DNA of 64,000 nt from Gammaproteobacteria bacterium. Its GTDB lineage: Bacteria; Pseudomonadota; Gammaproteobacteria; SZUA-229. Numbering within the stretch: the first letter of the stretch is position 1; each line of letters begins with the position of its first letter. A program made the position numbers and the translations under genes. The notes under the pieces are model-generated. The model saw only the letters and a list, made by a program, of their open reading frames with translations, was not told where the DNA came from and did not search any database. The DNA lies in the NCBI GenBank assembly GCA_029882355.1, contig JAOUKV010000005.1:62001-126000 (forward strand). The letters are read 5' to 3'. Below, one piece after another: positions 12,039 to 19,504 of this stretch.

Positions 12039-12512
12039 ATGCCTACTTTTGTACGTACAGAAAAGTGTGATGGGTGTAAAGGTCAAGACCGTACGGCTTG
12101 CATGTACATCTGCCCTCATGATCTGATGAAACTGGATAAAGATGGTTCTGACACTGGTCACGCCATGAAGTCTTATAACCAGGAACCTGAGCAGTGCTGG
12201 GAATGCTATTCCTGCGTTAAAATCTGCCCACAAAACGCTATCGAATGCCGTCACTATGCTGACGTTGTTCCTTTGGGCGGTTCAGTACAGCCTCTTCGTG
12301 GTACTGATTCAATCATGTGGACCATCAAGTTCCGTAACGGAACTATGAAGCGTTTCAAATTCCCAATCCGCACCACCGCTGAAGGTTCTATCGATCCTTA
12401 TGCAGGTAAAGCTGACGCTGACATGGCTAAGATCGAAGACAACGGTTTCTTCAATCACAATGAACAGAATGGCTACCGCGCTGGCGATCGTAGCGAACTG
12501 ATCAATCTTTAA
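12039..12512 (+). CDS. aprB: Adenylylsulfate (APS) reductase beta subunit
   Basis: AprB passes electrons between the FAD of AprA and the respiratory chain through two 4Fe-4S clusters. Cluster ligands are C10, C13, C21, C25 and C53, C56, C59, C63, with the family-typical DGCKGQDRTACMYICP opening. The C-terminal tail of about 90 residues, which wraps AprA, is present (157 residues in total, full length). The ATG has an AGGAG site. It lies 20 bases before aprA. No aprM or qmo gene follows, so the membrane partner lies elsewhere. Confidence 0.97.
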   Translation: MPTFVRTEKCDGCKGQDRTACMYICPHDLMKLDKDGSDTGHAMKSYNQEPEQCWECYSCVKICPQNAIECRHYADVVPLGGSVQPLRGTDSIMWTIKFRNGTMKRFKFPIRTTAEGSIDPYAGKADADMAKIEDNGFFNHNEQNGYRAGDRSELINL

Positions 12513-12532
12513 TATTAAGAGGTTTAAATAAA

Positions 12533-14518
12533 ATGGCTGAATTTGGAAATCCTGAAGTCATCGAAGAGAGTGTAGACATTCTCCTTATCGGTGGCGGTAT
12601 GGCCTGTTGTGGTACAGCGTTCGAACTTCCTCGCTGGATCGAAGCATCAGGTAAAGATATTACAGTTCGATTAGTTGATAAAGCGGCTATGGATCGCTCT
12701 GGTGCTGTTGCACAGGGTCTGTCTGCGATCAACACTTACATTGGTCCAGAGCAAGATCCTGCTGACTACGCTCGTATGGTCTCTAATGACCTTATGGGTA
12801 TCACTCGTGATGATTTGGCATACGACTTAGGTCGTCATGTTGACGAATCTGTACATTTGTTTGAAGAATGGGGTCTACCTATTTGGAAACTTGACGAGAA
12901 CGGTGAGCGTTTTGACGGTTCTAAAGGTATGACTTCATTGAAAGATGGCGGCAAACCTGTACGTTCTGGTAAATGGCAGATCATGATTAATGGTGAGTCT
13001 TACAAATGGATTGTTGCTGAAGCTGCTAAGAAAGCTTTGGGCATCGAAAACATTTCTGAGCGTGTATTCATCGTTAAACTGATTAACGATAAGAATGATC
13101 CTAGCCGCATCGCTGGTGCTGTTGGTTTCTCTACTCGTGACAACAAAGTAATTGTATACACTGCTAAAGCAATTCTTCTTGCTGCTGGTGGTTGTGTAAA
13201 CATCTTCCGTCCACGTTCTGTTGGTGAAGGTACTGGTCGTGCTTGGTACCCAGTTTGGAACGCAGGTTCAACTTACTCAATGGCTGCTGAAGCTGGTGCT
13301 GAGTTGACACTGATGGAAAATCGCTTTGTACCTACTCGTTTCAAAGACGGTTACGGTCCTGTTGGCGCCTGGTTCCTGTTGTTCAAATCTAAAGCTACAA
13401 ACGCTTATGGCGAAGCTTACATGGAAAAGAACAAAGCAATGTTGGACGACTATCCTCCATACGGCGCTGCAGCAGTTCCTGCTTCTTGTCTACGTAATCA
13501 CTTAATGCTTAAAGAGATGAAAGACGGTAACGGTCCTATCTGGATGGATACTGTGACTGCTCTTGCTAACCTGCGTGAGACTCTGTCTCCTCGTGAAGTT
13601 AAGCATCTTGAAGCTGAAGCATGGGAAGATTTCCTTGACATGTGTGTTGGCCAATGTGGTATTTGGGTTGGTGAGAACATCGAGCCAGAGAAGAAAAACT
13701 CTGAGTTGATGCCTACTGAACCATACCTACTGGGTTCACATTCAGGTTGTTGTGGTATCTGGACTTCAGGTCCTACAGATGTTGGCGCGCCAACAACTGA
13801 AACAGAGCCTGGCGTACCTGATCACCTTCCACAAGGTTGGAACTGGGGCTACCGTGGTATGACCACAGTAAACGGCCTGTTCACAGCTGGTGATGGTGTT
13901 GGTGCTTCTGGTCACAAATTCTCTTCAGGTTCTCATGCTGAAGGTCGTATGTGTGCTAAATCAATGCTGAAATACGTTTTAGACAATGCTGACTACAAAC
14001 CTGAGTTAGATACTTCTGTTGAAGATTTGGTTGCAGCGGTTATTAAACCTGCTAAGACTTTCCTTGAGCATAAAGACTACTCAACAGCGATCGACGTTAA
14101 TCCTAACTACATCACTCCAAAAATGTTGCAGTTCCGTCTGCAAAAAATTATGGATGAGTACGTAGCTGGTGTTGCAACTTACTACAACACTAATGCGGAA
14201 ATGATGCAGGTAGCTGGCGAAAAGATCGACATGCTTAAAGAAGATGCAGAGAAAATGCGTGCTAAAGACCTTCACGAATTACTTCGTGCCTGGGAAAACT
14301 ACCACCGCATCATCACTGCTGAAGCTCATCTGAAACACATTGAGTTCCGTCAGGAATCACGTTACCCAGGTTTCTACTATCGTACAGACAAGAACTTTGT
14401 CGACGAAGAAAACTGGCATTGTTTCGTGAATTCAATTTACGACAAAAAGACTCAAAAGTTCACATGCTTCAAGCGTGCGCACGTTGACTTGGTAGACAAG
14501 TCTAAATTGTTCAAATAA
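12533..14518 (+). CDS. aprA: Adenylylsulfate (APS) reductase alpha subunit
   Basis: AprA is the FAD subunit that, in sulfur oxidisers, forms APS from sulfite and AMP in the cytoplasm. The 661-residue length is normal. An FAD-binding GGGMACCG motif lies at residues 20-27, and the family segments RPRSVGEGTGRAWYP, GVGASGHKFSSGSHAEGR (flavin contact) and the C-terminal helical domain are all present. It is second in aprBA and ends in a strong terminator. Codon use is strikingly regular (many GCT, GGT and CGT codons), in keeping with high expression. Confidence 0.98.
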   Translation: MAEFGNPEVIEESVDILLIGGGMACCGTAFELPRWIEASGKDITVRLVDKAAMDRSGAVAQGLSAINTYIGPEQDPADYARMVSNDLMGITRDDLAYDLGRHVDESVHLFEEWGLPIWKLDENGERFDGSKGMTSLKDGGKPVRSGKWQIMINGESYKWIVAEAAKKALGIENISERVFIVKLINDKNDPSRIAGAVGFSTRDNKVIVYTAKAILLAAGGCVNIFRPRSVGEGTGRAWYPVWNAGSTYSMAAEAGAELTLMENRFVPTRFKDGYGPVGAWFLLFKSKATNAYGEAYMEKNKAMLDDYPPYGAAAVPASCLRNHLMLKEMKDGNGPIWMDTVTALANLRETLSPREVKHLEAEAWEDFLDMCVGQCGIWVGENIEPEKKNSELMPTEPYLLGSHSGCCGIWTSGPTDVGAPTTETEPGVPDHLPQGWNWGYRGMTTVNGLFTAGDGVGASGHKFSSGSHAEGRMCAKSMLKYVLDNADYKPELDTSVEDLVAAVIKPAKTFLEHKDYSTAIDVNPNYITPKMLQFRLQKIMDEYVAGVATYYNTNAEMMQVAGEKIDMLKEDAEKMRAKDLHELLRAWENYHRIITAEAHLKHIEFRQESRYPGFYYRTDKNFVDEENWHCFVNSIYDKKTQKFTCFKRAHVDLVDKSKLFK

Positions 14519-16232: not shown

Positions 16233-16967
16233 TTACGCCTTTATATAGACCCAACCATCCTGCAGACGATTAGGGATTATATCTTTAGCTGTTTTATCAG
16301 TATTCACGCCCGGCATTAGAACAATTTCAACACCTTCTATTTTATTTGCATTAGCAATAGAACGCTTACAAGCAAAAAATGATACCCCCTCATTATCAAT
16401 CATTTTTTGCACACGATCAATATAAGGGGATACATCTGGCCGAAAAATATTTATCCCTTCTTTATTAGTAACCACTTCCAGTTTCATTGGTAGGTTGGCT
16501 TTACGGTAAGTTGCCAGCAAATTATCAGCCTCATTAAGCGCCGAATTAACAACGCGAAAATCACCAGAATCAATATGTAAAACAATTTTGCGTTGCACAT
16601 GATCTACCATGACACGATTGGCAACATATTGAAAAGTGTTCTCAGCGGAAACCGCATTAATTGAATTAGGGCTGTATTGATAGGTTGCCCAACCCAATAT
16701 CACACCTACAACTAATGTAATAGAAGCAGCAACAGCCTTTATATAAATTGAATTTAAATTGGTTTGCCTACTGGCTTGATAACGTGATGCTGGGACCTCA
16801 CTGTAAGCATAACCCACTAACTCACGCACGGCCTTTAACTGACAAACACGCTCACGTAAAACTTTATCACCAAGCAAGGCTTGATGAATTTCATTCATTT
16901 CATCGGTATCGAGTTGTTTATCGATAAATAAATTTAATTTATCTTCAGTAATTTCATTAGCACTCAT
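16233..16967 (-). CDS. Anti-sigma factor with periplasmic DsrE-like domain
   Basis: The 244-residue protein joins a short cytoplasmic anti-sigma-like helical region (about residues 5-55, ITEDKLNLFIDKQLDTDEM), one membrane span (about 77-96) and a C-terminal domain (about 127-244) of the DsrE/F-like fold. The DsrE-like part ends with the family-typical GWVYIKA and has one conserved cysteine, C200, in VSFFACKRSI. The zinc-binding H-x3-C-x2-C motif of ZAS anti-sigma factors is absent. It overlaps the sigma factor gene by one base (TAATG), which fits a sigma/anti-sigma pair. The divergent gene at 17724 encodes a soluble DsrE-like protein with the matching VTFSACKNTI, so the outer domain may sense a sulfur-related signal, or bind that protein. 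The sensing role is inference. Confidence 0.8.
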   Translation of the reverse strand: MSANEITEDKLNLFIDKQLDTDEMNEIHQALLGDKVLRERVCQLKAVRELVGYAYSEVPASRYQASRQTNLNSIYIKAVAASITLVVGVILGWATYQYSPNSINAVSAENTFQYVANRVMVDHVQRKIVLHIDSGDFRVVNSALNEADNLLATYRKANLPMKLEVVTNKEGINIFRPDVSPYIDRVQKMIDNEGVSFFACKRSIANANKIEGVEIVLMPGVNTDKTAKDIIPNRLQDGWVYIKA

Positions 16968-17515
16968 TACTTAACCCTCCGCAACTTAAATTCAACCAGT
17001 TCATCTGAACCAAAGTCCAGTAACTGATGTTTTAAGTTTTTACGTGCCCTAAATAAGCGACTCATTACCGTACCAACCGGCACATCTATAATTTCAGCGA
17101 TCTCGGCATAACTAAAGCCTGCAAAGTCCGCCAAAGTCACCACTTCTCTCAATGGCATGGGCAGCTGCTCTATTGATGTACGTACTCGATCAACTATCTG
17201 GGATTGCTGATAACTTTCAGCATGCTCTAGTTGAGCATCATCATGCATTTCTACAAATTCAACATTTCTGCCTTTAACTCGTAAATAATCCTGCCAACAA
17301 TTAAATAATATCCGATACAACCAGGCATCCAGTGTTCCAACATCCCGTAATTTAGCCGCATTTTTTATCGCCTTATAGATAGCTTCCTGCGCTAAATCGT
17401 CTGCCAATGCGGCATCATGACACCATGAATAGGCGATGCGATAGAGCTTATTACGACGCGCTGAAAATTCTGATTTCAACGAAATTGCAGCCAACATGTT
17501 TTTTACAATTTTCAA
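16967..17515 (-). CDS. ECF-type RNA polymerase sigma factor
   Basis: The 182-residue protein has sigma-70 region 2 (YRIAYSWCHDAALADDLAQEAIYKA with AWLYRILFNCWQDYLR) and region 4 (LREVVTLADFAGFSYAEIAEIIDVPVGTVMSRL) and little else, the layout of extracytoplasmic-function sigma factors. The start is an unusual TTG at 17515: it has GGAGG seven bases upstream, while the first ATG (17497) would be 25 bases away. It is translationally coupled to the anti-sigma gene. A GGAATAAA-N13-CGTCTATA promoter just upstream suggests that the factor drives its own gene. Confidence 0.9.
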   Translation of the reverse strand: MKIVKNMLAAISLKSEFSARRNKLYRIAYSWCHDAALADDLAQEAIYKAIKNAAKLRDVGTLDAWLYRILFNCWQDYLRVKGRNVEFVEMHDDAQLEHAESYQQSQIVDRVRTSIEQLPMPLREVVTLADFAGFSYAEIAEIIDVPVGTVMSRLFRARKNLKHQLLDFGSDELVEFKLRRVK

Positions 17516-17535
17516 AATAATTCCTCCAACTCCTA

Positions 17536-17564
17536 TATAGACGTCGCTGGCATCTATTTATTCC
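17536..17564 (-). promoter_or_regulatory. Predicted ECF-type promoter of the sigma/anti-sigma operon
   Basis: Read on the minus strand, GGAATAAA (17564-17557) and CGTCTATA (17543-17536) are 13 bases apart, giving GGAAT-N16-CGTC, standard ECF -35/-10 architecture. It lies 20 bases above the TTG start. The same spacing and similar boxes occur on the opposite strand at 17633-17661. Confidence 0.65.
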
Positions 17565-17632
17565 AATTTCACTACAATATTTAATTTTCTTATGCGCTCA
17601 TTCTAACAGCATGAATATATTCATTAAAAACA

Positions 17633-17661
17633 TGAATATTCTCAAATCATCTGCGTCTTTA
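17633..17661 (+). promoter_or_regulatory. Predicted ECF-type promoter of the DsrE-like/porin operon
   Basis: TGAATATT (17633-17640) and CGTCTTTA (17654-17661) are separated by exactly 13 bases, the same arrangement as in the sigma gene's promoter. It lies about 63 bases upstream of the chosen start. A direct repeat of CATGAATAT overlaps the -35 side. Confidence 0.6.
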
Positions 17662-17723
17662 TACTAAGTGCCCTCAACGGCATCATAACAAATAGATTTT
17701 TAATAATAATGAGTGGAGTCAAA

Positions 17724-18155
17724 ATGAGAAAATTTTATAAATCACTGGTCTTGCTGGTGGCCATGGCATTCATAGCCCCCGCGCACGCTGCTAACGATTT
17801 TGCTGAGGAAAAAATCGTCATACAAATCAGCGACCCCGATCCTTTCAAACAAACACAGGTGCTCAATGTCGCCAACAACCTGATCAAACACTACGGTAAA
17901 AATAAAGTTTCCATCGAAATTGTTGCTTTCGGCCCTGGCTTACGTCTTTTATTTGAGGACAATGTAAACAGTGGCCGTATTGATAGCCTTACAACAGATG
18001 ATGTCACTTTCTCTGCCTGTAAAAACACGATAACAGCCATGACTAAAAAACTGGGACATGCCCCTGCACTACATAGCAATGCAACACCTGTGACTGCTGG
18101 AGTGGTACGTATTATCGACCTGGTTAATCAGGACTACAAACTAATTAAACCTTAA
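17724..18155 (+). CDS. Periplasmic DsrE-like family protein
   Basis: The 143-residue precursor has a signal peptide (MRKFYKSLVLLVAMAFIAPAHA) and a mature DsrE/F-like domain. Family marks include VSIEIVAFGPGLRLLFEDN and the single cysteine C99 in VTFSACKNTI. Cytoplasmic DsrE-type proteins carry sulfane sulfur on a cysteine in sulfur metabolism; whether this exported relative does the same is unknown. I chose the ATG at 17724 because GGAG lies five bases upstream; the ATG at 17709 has none and would place five extra residues before the signal. It is divergent from the ECF sigma pair and 59 bases before the porin gene. Confidence 0.85.
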   Translation: MRKFYKSLVLLVAMAFIAPAHAANDFAEEKIVIQISDPDPFKQTQVLNVANNLIKHYGKNKVSIEIVAFGPGLRLLFEDNVNSGRIDSLTTDDVTFSACKNTITAMTKKLGHAPALHSNATPVTAGVVRIIDLVNQDYKLIKP

Positions 18156-18214
18156 ACACAATTATTTTAACTATGGGCTGTAACCATTTCAGCACATTGT
18201 AGACTTATGGAGAG

Positions 18215-19504
18215 ATGAGAGTGATAAAAAAACAACTAAAAAATATATTAATTGCGGCGGCCACGTTTGGCGCCATGACTGCATCAACGACACAGGCAGC
18301 TAACTGGCTAATGCTTCAGGGCACTGAACCCTCTGGCGCAGCAGAGCGTGACCACGTATGGGGTTTTATACAGGCTCAATATCAAGATGATAAAAGTGAC
18401 CCCAATGGTGCAGGTGGTTATATTCCCCCAAAACTGATTGGACCTAACCTGGACTCTCAGAGTGCTTTTAATGTTAACCGTGCACGTATTGGTGTACGTG
18501 GAACAGGAATGCCCCTGGACAGCAACGTAAATTACTTCATTCTTACTGAAATGGGTAATAACGGTATTACTGCACCTGGCGGTTACAATGCAGCATTAAC
18601 CGATGCCAGCATTACGTTGAACCACATACCAGGTGCTCGTCTACGCATAGGTATGTTCAAATATCCTGGTGCCGAAGAAGGCCTGCAAGCAATTCATGTG
18701 TTCGACTACATCAACTTCACTAGCGTCACCAACCAGATGTTGCTGGAACGTTTCCCTCAAGCCAGTGATGCCAATGTGCCACCAACAGCGACGCCTGATG
18801 CAAATATGGCTGCATACTCTAGATCGGTTGGTGCATTCCGTGATACGGGTATTCAAGTATTTGATACCTTTAAGTCTGATAACTGGGAACACAGCTACGC
18901 CATCATGGTGGGTAATGGCAATGGGCTCAACTTTGGTGACAATGATGACAATATGGATACCTACCTGTATTGGTCATCTGAATTGGTACTTGGTGGCAAA
19001 GGTGGCCGTCGTTCAGGACTGAAACTATTTGCATGGAATCAGGATGGCAAACGAACCAGTACCGTCGACAAGACTCAGGAACAGGATCGTACTCGTACCG
19101 GGTTTGGTGTCAAATATCTCGGCAAACTATTTCGTGTAACAGCTGAATACATGAAAGGTGAAGGGATGATTTTTCAGGGACAACACCGCCCGGGACATAT
19201 CTACAATAATGAAGAGGCTGACGGTGCATATATCGAAGGTGGCTGGTACATAGCAAATACAAACTTTGAGATCGATCTACGCTATGACACCTACACTCGC
19301 GGTGAAAACCACCCCACTTCGGCAGCAAATGATGAAAGTACCGCAGATACGATGACAATTGGAACCCAGTACCATTTTAACAAAAAGACACGCCTCAATC
19401 TTGAGTATGCTAATCGTGACTATGAGTCAAATACTGCTGCTGTTGAAGCTCAGCAAAAAGATGTGGGTGGACGTCTGGCTGTACAGGTAACTCATATCTT
19501 CTAA
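18215..19504 (+). CDS. Outer-membrane porin, phosphate-selective O/P-like
   Basis: The 429-residue protein has a signal peptide ending near residue 28 (STTQA-A) and a beta-barrel body ending in HIF, a terminal aromatic typical of porins. Segments such as NVNRARIGVRGTGMPLDSNVNYFILTEMG and GARLRIGMFKYPGAEEG match the OprO/OprP-like group. Its substrate cannot be read from the sequence. The ATG at 18215 sits only two bases after GGAG; the GTG at 18221 has better spacing and may be the true start. It is probably co-transcribed with the DsrE-like gene and so part of the ECF regulon. Confidence 0.85.
   Translation: MRVIKKQLKNILIAAATFGAMTASTTQAANWLMLQGTEPSGAAERDHVWGFIQAQYQDDKSDPNGAGGYIPPKLIGPNLDSQSAFNVNRARIGVRGTGMPLDSNVNYFILTEMGNNGITAPGGYNAALTDASITLNHIPGARLRIGMFKYPGAEEGLQAIHVFDYINFTSVTNQMLLERFPQASDANVPPTATPDANMAAYSRSVGAFRDTGIQVFDTFKSDNWEHSYAIMVGNGNGLNFGDNDDNMDTYLYWSSELVLGGKGGRRSGLKLFAWNQDGKRTSTVDKTQEQDRTRTGFGVKYLGKLFRVTAEYMKGEGMIFQGQHRPGHIYNNEEADGAYIEGGWYIANTNFEIDLRYDTYTRGENHPTSAANDESTADTMTIGTQYHFNKKTRLNLEYANRDYESNTAAVEAQQKDVGGRLAVQVTHIF

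Follow-up and report, generated by a model that had tools for sequence, protein, structure and literature searches.

In ECF systems an anti-sigma factor keeps its sigma factor bound until a signal arrives, and in the RpoE–RseA system, whose class I anti-sigma factor is a membrane protein, RseA is bound by RseB. RpoE–RseA resembles the locus described here in several respects: (i) sigma and anti-sigma factor are encoded in one operon; (ii) the anti-sigma factor has a single membrane span; (iii) the ECF-type promoter is self-regulated, with GAATA at -35 and CGTC at -10; and (iv) the N-termini of some homologues of our anti-sigma factor give weak matches to zf-HC2 or RseA_N. The two systems differ in that the outer domain of the anti-sigma factor studied here is DsrE/F-like, with one invariant cysteine, and in that the predicted targets are sulfur-oxidation genes.

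Control of sox genes by ECF sigma factors has been described in Arcobacter butzleri, where microarrays and mutants showed that such factors affect sox expression (PMC3445524); that paper mentions no DsrE domain, the regulons are broad and overlapping, and the signal is not known there. In Sinorhizobium meliloti, according to the part of the source available, the RpoE1 and RpoE4 pairs of group ECF26 answer sulfite derived from thiosulfate and taurine, and their regulon is small and includes their own operon, as here; however, they control the sulfite dehydrogenase SorT rather than Sox, and the same part of the source describes no DsrE outer domain (PMC3511301). In Hyphomicrobium, sox genes are controlled by sulfane sulfur through the repressors SoxR and sHdrR with SoxT1B, a YeeE-like protein being involved (PMC10451225, PMC11582611). 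SoxR and sHdrR are cytoplasmic ArsR-type repressors and SoxT1B is the membrane signal unit of SoxR, whereas in the present system the sensor domain would lie outside the cytoplasm. The sensing of reduced sulfur outside the cytoplasm by sulfur oxidizers has been stated to be poorly understood (PMC11582611). Finally, MTH1491 (1L1S), YchN and DsrEFH share their fold with two proteins of our locus, and the conserved cysteine aligns with MTH1491, but these are stand-alone proteins that are not fused to an anti-sigma factor. Literature searches combining DsrE with anti-sigma factors returned nothing relevant and no described equivalent. Since ECF control of sox has already been shown in A. butzleri (PMC3445524), the new part is the proposed sensor domain, together with a coherent predicted sulfur-oxidation regulon.

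The sequence evidence presented below concerns architecture and fold, the invariant cysteine, gene order, a shared promoter motif that recurs at sox genes, and the position of the pair in some sox clusters. On this basis we consider it probable that the DsrE-type anti-sigma/ECF pair is an envelope sulfur-sensing switch for Sox, or dissimilatory sulfur oxidation, whose signal is read through Cys200 of the anti-sigma factor.

The locus lies in the 64-kb stretch of DNA that was analyzed as a whole (the window). An earlier, sequence-only reading of this stretch had called four genes, all of which are confirmed by the open reading frames of the window. On the minus strand, the ECF sigma factor gene (16967..17515, TTG start) is followed by the gene for the membrane anti-sigma factor (16233..16967), the final base of the former being the first base of the latter. 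Divergent from these, on the plus strand, are the genes for an exported DsrE-like protein with a signal peptide (17724..18155) and, in line with it, for a Porin_O_P-type outer membrane porin (18215..19504; 32.8 bits against a Porin_O_P cut-off of 20.9). Between the two operons are two predicted ECF promoters, both kept in relatives: one for the sigma/anti-sigma operon (17540..17563, minus strand; GAATAAATAGATGCCAGCGACGTC, then TATATA) and one for the dsrE-porin operon (17634..17657, plus strand; GAATATTCTCAAATCATCTGCGTC, then TTTATA). The dsrE reading frame is open from an ATG at 17709, and counted from there the cysteine in the VTFSACKNT motif of the exported protein is C104; the ATG at 17724, which lies behind GGAG, is the likelier start and makes this residue C99, the number it was given in the earlier reading. 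About 1.7 kb from the locus, at 12039-14518, the window encodes the adenylylsulfate reductase subunits AprB and AprA, which pass their NCBIfam cut-offs, as the earlier call of aprBA had it.

The sigma factor matches Sigma70_r2 (50.5 bits) and Sigma70_r4_2 (61.1 bits), both above cut-off, as well as the sigma70-ECF model TIGR02937 (83.8 bits, cut-off 42.9), and it contains only sigma regions 2 and 4, as expected of an ECF factor. The anti-sigma factor has the layout of a class I membrane anti-sigma factor: its gene lies directly behind the sigma gene, and the 244-residue protein consists of predicted cytoplasmic helices (8-56), a single hydrophobic segment that would span the membrane (about 73-96) and an outer DsrE-like domain (about 124-243). 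No credible match to a known anti-sigma domain family was obtained for the N-terminus of the window protein, and its Pfam matches to Nup188_N and VipD-like_C were rejected, as they are below cut-off and biologically senseless. Among 18 homologous N-termini, ten weakly match zf-HC2 (E up to 0.1) and one matches RseA_N, which is in keeping with a putative class I anti-sigma domain.

The DsrE-like nature of the outer domain, proposed from the letters alone in the earlier reading, is borne out both by sequence comparison and by structure prediction. Residues 125-243 of the anti-sigma factor match MTH1491/1L1S with an E value of 5.9e-7 and the exported protein does so with an E value of 1.9e-6, while the two window proteins match each other at 30% over 93 residues (E 9e-6). 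AlphaFold2 models of both proteins were built from alignments and compared with solved structures by Foldseek. For both, the best solved relative is 1l1s, with TM values (by target length) of 0.88 for the outer domain of the anti-sigma factor (E 9e-8) and 0.92 for the exported protein, followed by ST0148, YchN and DsrEFH chains; 2pd2 was also matched. Neither window protein matches PF02635 (DsrE) in a Pfam search, and it is on the grounds of fold and homology that we name them DsrE-like; this family is matched by 17 of 24 exported homologues and by four of 25 anti-sigma homologues at E up to 0.01, and a second exported DsrE (locus L343) passes it with 41.7 bits (cut-off 22.7).

The lone conserved cysteine of DsrE-family proteins suggests a sulfur-carrying thiol. 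The cysteines that the sequence-only reading had singled out are indeed conserved, as members of the DsrE/F-like family would lead one to expect: C200 is present in all 72 distinct full-length anti-sigma homologues, in which it and Asp16 are the sole positions without exception, and the cysteine of the exported protein in 24 of 24 homologues. C42, the second cysteine of the window anti-sigma factor, is kept in only two thirds of the homologues.

Of the 54 genomes that represent the order, 41 have a relative of the anti-sigma factor. A draw from the whole phylum gave a match at E up to 0.001 in 23 of 397 genomes, of which only three besides the window's own genome match over the full length; viral contigs yielded no relative of the anti-sigma factor. 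Where records with the locus bear a name, they are of metagenome-assembled Gammaproteobacteria, in some cases under the labels Thiotrichaceae, Thiotrichales or Arenicellales. A search for the gene order in relatives found it kept across most of the order, in most loci with enough flanking sequence: the sigma/anti-sigma pair, divergent from it a dsrE gene, often with a second one, and a porin gene.

This arrangement bears on an alternative in which the outer domain is a docking module and no sulfur sensor, so that the exported DsrE-like protein would bind there, much as RseB does to RseA, and report how much of it is present or how far it is loaded, while control of sox would remain with the sigma factor. 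Such binding would fit with the same fold in both proteins, with the dsrE gene beside the pair in most loci and with the established tendency of DsrE-family proteins to form oligomers. However, a cysteine that is invariant in the anti-sigma factor itself goes beyond the need of a pure docking surface, and some paralogous pairs lack an adjoining dsrE gene; we regard this alternative as unlikely, and prefer sulfur sensing through Cys200.

The two divergent promoters share an ECF motif, GAATAW-N14-CGTC(T), with T-rich sequence behind it. There is one copy per direction, and the window has no others, against 0.21 sites expected. Nearly all close relatives have this pair of sites, so that a predicted self-regulated promoter common to the own and the divergent operon, typical of ECF systems, can be recognized in them. 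In a more distant clade (genera g5, g7, g8, g10 and g14), TGGAATAW-N15-CATCT is found instead, again in both directions; the -10 element therefore appears to have shifted together with the sigma factor. Genome-wide, the broad pattern GAATAWN{14,15}CGTC is too frequent to be informative (28 matches in the own genome, 22 in a reversed control), and tighter versions were therefore used. Of the strict form, GAATAWN14CGTCTNTA, the window's own genome has three sites, two being the divergent promoters and the third lying upstream of soxB.

This soxB site is 119 bp upstream of the gene, on another contig than the window, in a genome whose SoxB, SoxX, SoxY, SoxZ and SoxA pass the NCBIfam equivalog cut-offs. 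Within the order, GAATAW-N{14,15}-CGTC precedes soxB in 21 of 28 genomes from genera with this motif and in none of 12 others, at a conserved distance (about 119-126 bp) in many genomes, and it precedes soxX in nine of 49, seven of these belonging to genus g2. In total, 30 sites were seen in 89 soxB and soxX upstream regions, compared to 0.31 expected from simple letter shuffles of the same regions. A match at soxB of genome G047, with a longer spacer and 275 bp upstream, is probably due to chance. Relaxed motifs were also searched, and no convincing site was found at soxX of the own genus or at soxB of the CATCT-type clade, which has its own divergent pair; a near-match was seen at three of five soxX genes in genus g14 of that clade. 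With no motif at soxX, the sigma factor would govern Sox only in part in the window's own genus.

A scan of 12 genomes for the motif, in which about half of all matches would be due to chance according to a reversed-pattern control, placed it in front of YeeE/YedE-type sulfur transporter genes in four genomes (the two that were scanned reach 195-201 bits for PF04143). It likewise preceded second dsrE genes in three genomes and, in one, a gene for a SoxAX-binding-like protein, whose 69.5 bits fall short of the cut-off of 95.

Outside the family, five of 27 soxB genes carry the motif. These five are found among the 13 genomes with a full-length DsrE-type anti-sigma factor, one of these proteins being slightly shorter than full length, versus none among 14 genomes without it (Fisher p 0.016), and the spacer at soxB (15 or 16) equals that at the sigma gene's own promoter in four of the four genomes in which both are readable; as lineages are related, these counts and those of linkage are not fully independent. 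In three distant genomes, moreover, the sigma/anti-sigma pair is located inside a sox cluster. In two of them (Bacterium BMS3Bbin13, locus L319, and locus L329), porin-dsrE is divergent from sigma-antisigma-soxX-soxY-...-soxB; in the third (L109), a YeeE gene, soxY, sigma, anti-sigma, soxY, soxX and soxB follow one another on a single strand. The sequence-only reading had linked the locus to sulfur oxidation by way of sat and aprBA; the link itself stands, as the sigma factor's predicted motif is found at sulfur genes including soxB and the pair lies in sox clusters of distant genomes, but the data favour Sox over sat and aprBA.

As to mechanism, the anti-sigma factor would hold the ECF sigma factor with its class-I-like cytoplasmic part and sense a reduced sulfur species with its periplasmic DsrE-like domain, through the invariant Cys200. 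The likeliest signal may be sulfane sulfur handed on as a persulfide: sulfane sulfur that arises or is bound in the periplasm while thiosulfate or sulfide is oxidized would modify Cys200, either directly or via the exported DsrE-like protein. That protein may act as donor or as co-repressor, or it may be no more than a sulfur carrier under regulation. The sigma factor would then be let go, by a change of shape or by proteolysis, and would transcribe its own operon, the dsrE-porin operon and soxB, with soxXYZA, the YeeE/YedE sulfur transporter and further dsrE genes as possible additional targets depending on the lineage. We put forward more tentatively, as a possibility with somewhat less than an even chance, that a sulfur-carrier fold has been turned into a periplasmic anti-sigma sensor in which persulfidation of Cys200 from outside, with the exported DsrE-like protein as donor or competitor, directly releases the sigma factor that makes Sox. 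If true, the cell would sense external reduced sulfur without importing it. In many genomes of a group of uncultured sulfur-oxidizing Gammaproteobacteria, the system is a conserved candidate for such sensing, for which a sensor residue, a promoter motif and a set of predicted targets can be named. With it, the path by which external sulfur would act on sox transcription becomes open to test; the DsrE fold would gain a new role, in sensing, and the system could find use as a modular reporter of sulfur.

A general envelope redox or oxidant-stress system, in which the cysteine would react with oxidants and the sulfur genes would be part of a wider response, seems to us quite improbable. Many ECF systems do answer envelope stress, and in some relatives the motif is also found at a TlpA-like thioredoxin gene and at rpoD; however, the recurrent targets are the sulfur-oxidation genes soxB, soxX, yeeE and dsrE, and the pair is located inside sox clusters in distant genomes. 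That the sox promoter matches are non-functional, the system regulating only itself and the dsrE-porin operon, would agree with the genome-wide picture in the distant clade, which shows mainly the divergent pair, and with the motif-free soxX of the own genus, but is very hard to believe given the excess of sox sites over expectation, their conserved distance from soxB and the lack of the soxB motif where the anti-sigma factor is absent.

Several further arrangements were noted among the relatives. At six loci (L095, L097, L098, L099, L101 and L103), paralogous pairs of sigma and DsrE-anti-sigma factor have another divergent operon with neither dsrE nor porin, its products being an exported protein (PGTPVCLEANYMMADAMN...; about 510-590 residues) and a lipoprotein-like one (about 210-260 residues); genome G050 has both a pair of this type and one of the dsrE-porin type. 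Divergent from a DsrE-anti-sigma pair at L093:4864-6909 is a gene for a large exported SoxB/5'-nucleotidase-like metallophosphatase (HTGDIHGHMVPR). In other families (L405-L416 and L420-L422), sigma factor, anti-sigma factor and a DsrE2-type exported protein are encoded in one same-strand run, with no porin in the sequence stretch examined. Three genomes (L269, L341 and L349) have a copy of the sigma-factor motif in front of rpoD, the housekeeping sigma gene, at a distance of about 140-255 bp. In genome G011, a gene for a TlpA/ResA-like exported thioredoxin (L289:1596-2144) opens the divergent operon before the second dsrE and has its own copy of the motif. At L371 and L376, both from the CATCT-motif clade, the motif stands before a gene for a lipoprotein that has an NAEWRDTGK stretch, like that of the SoxAX-binding protein of L286.
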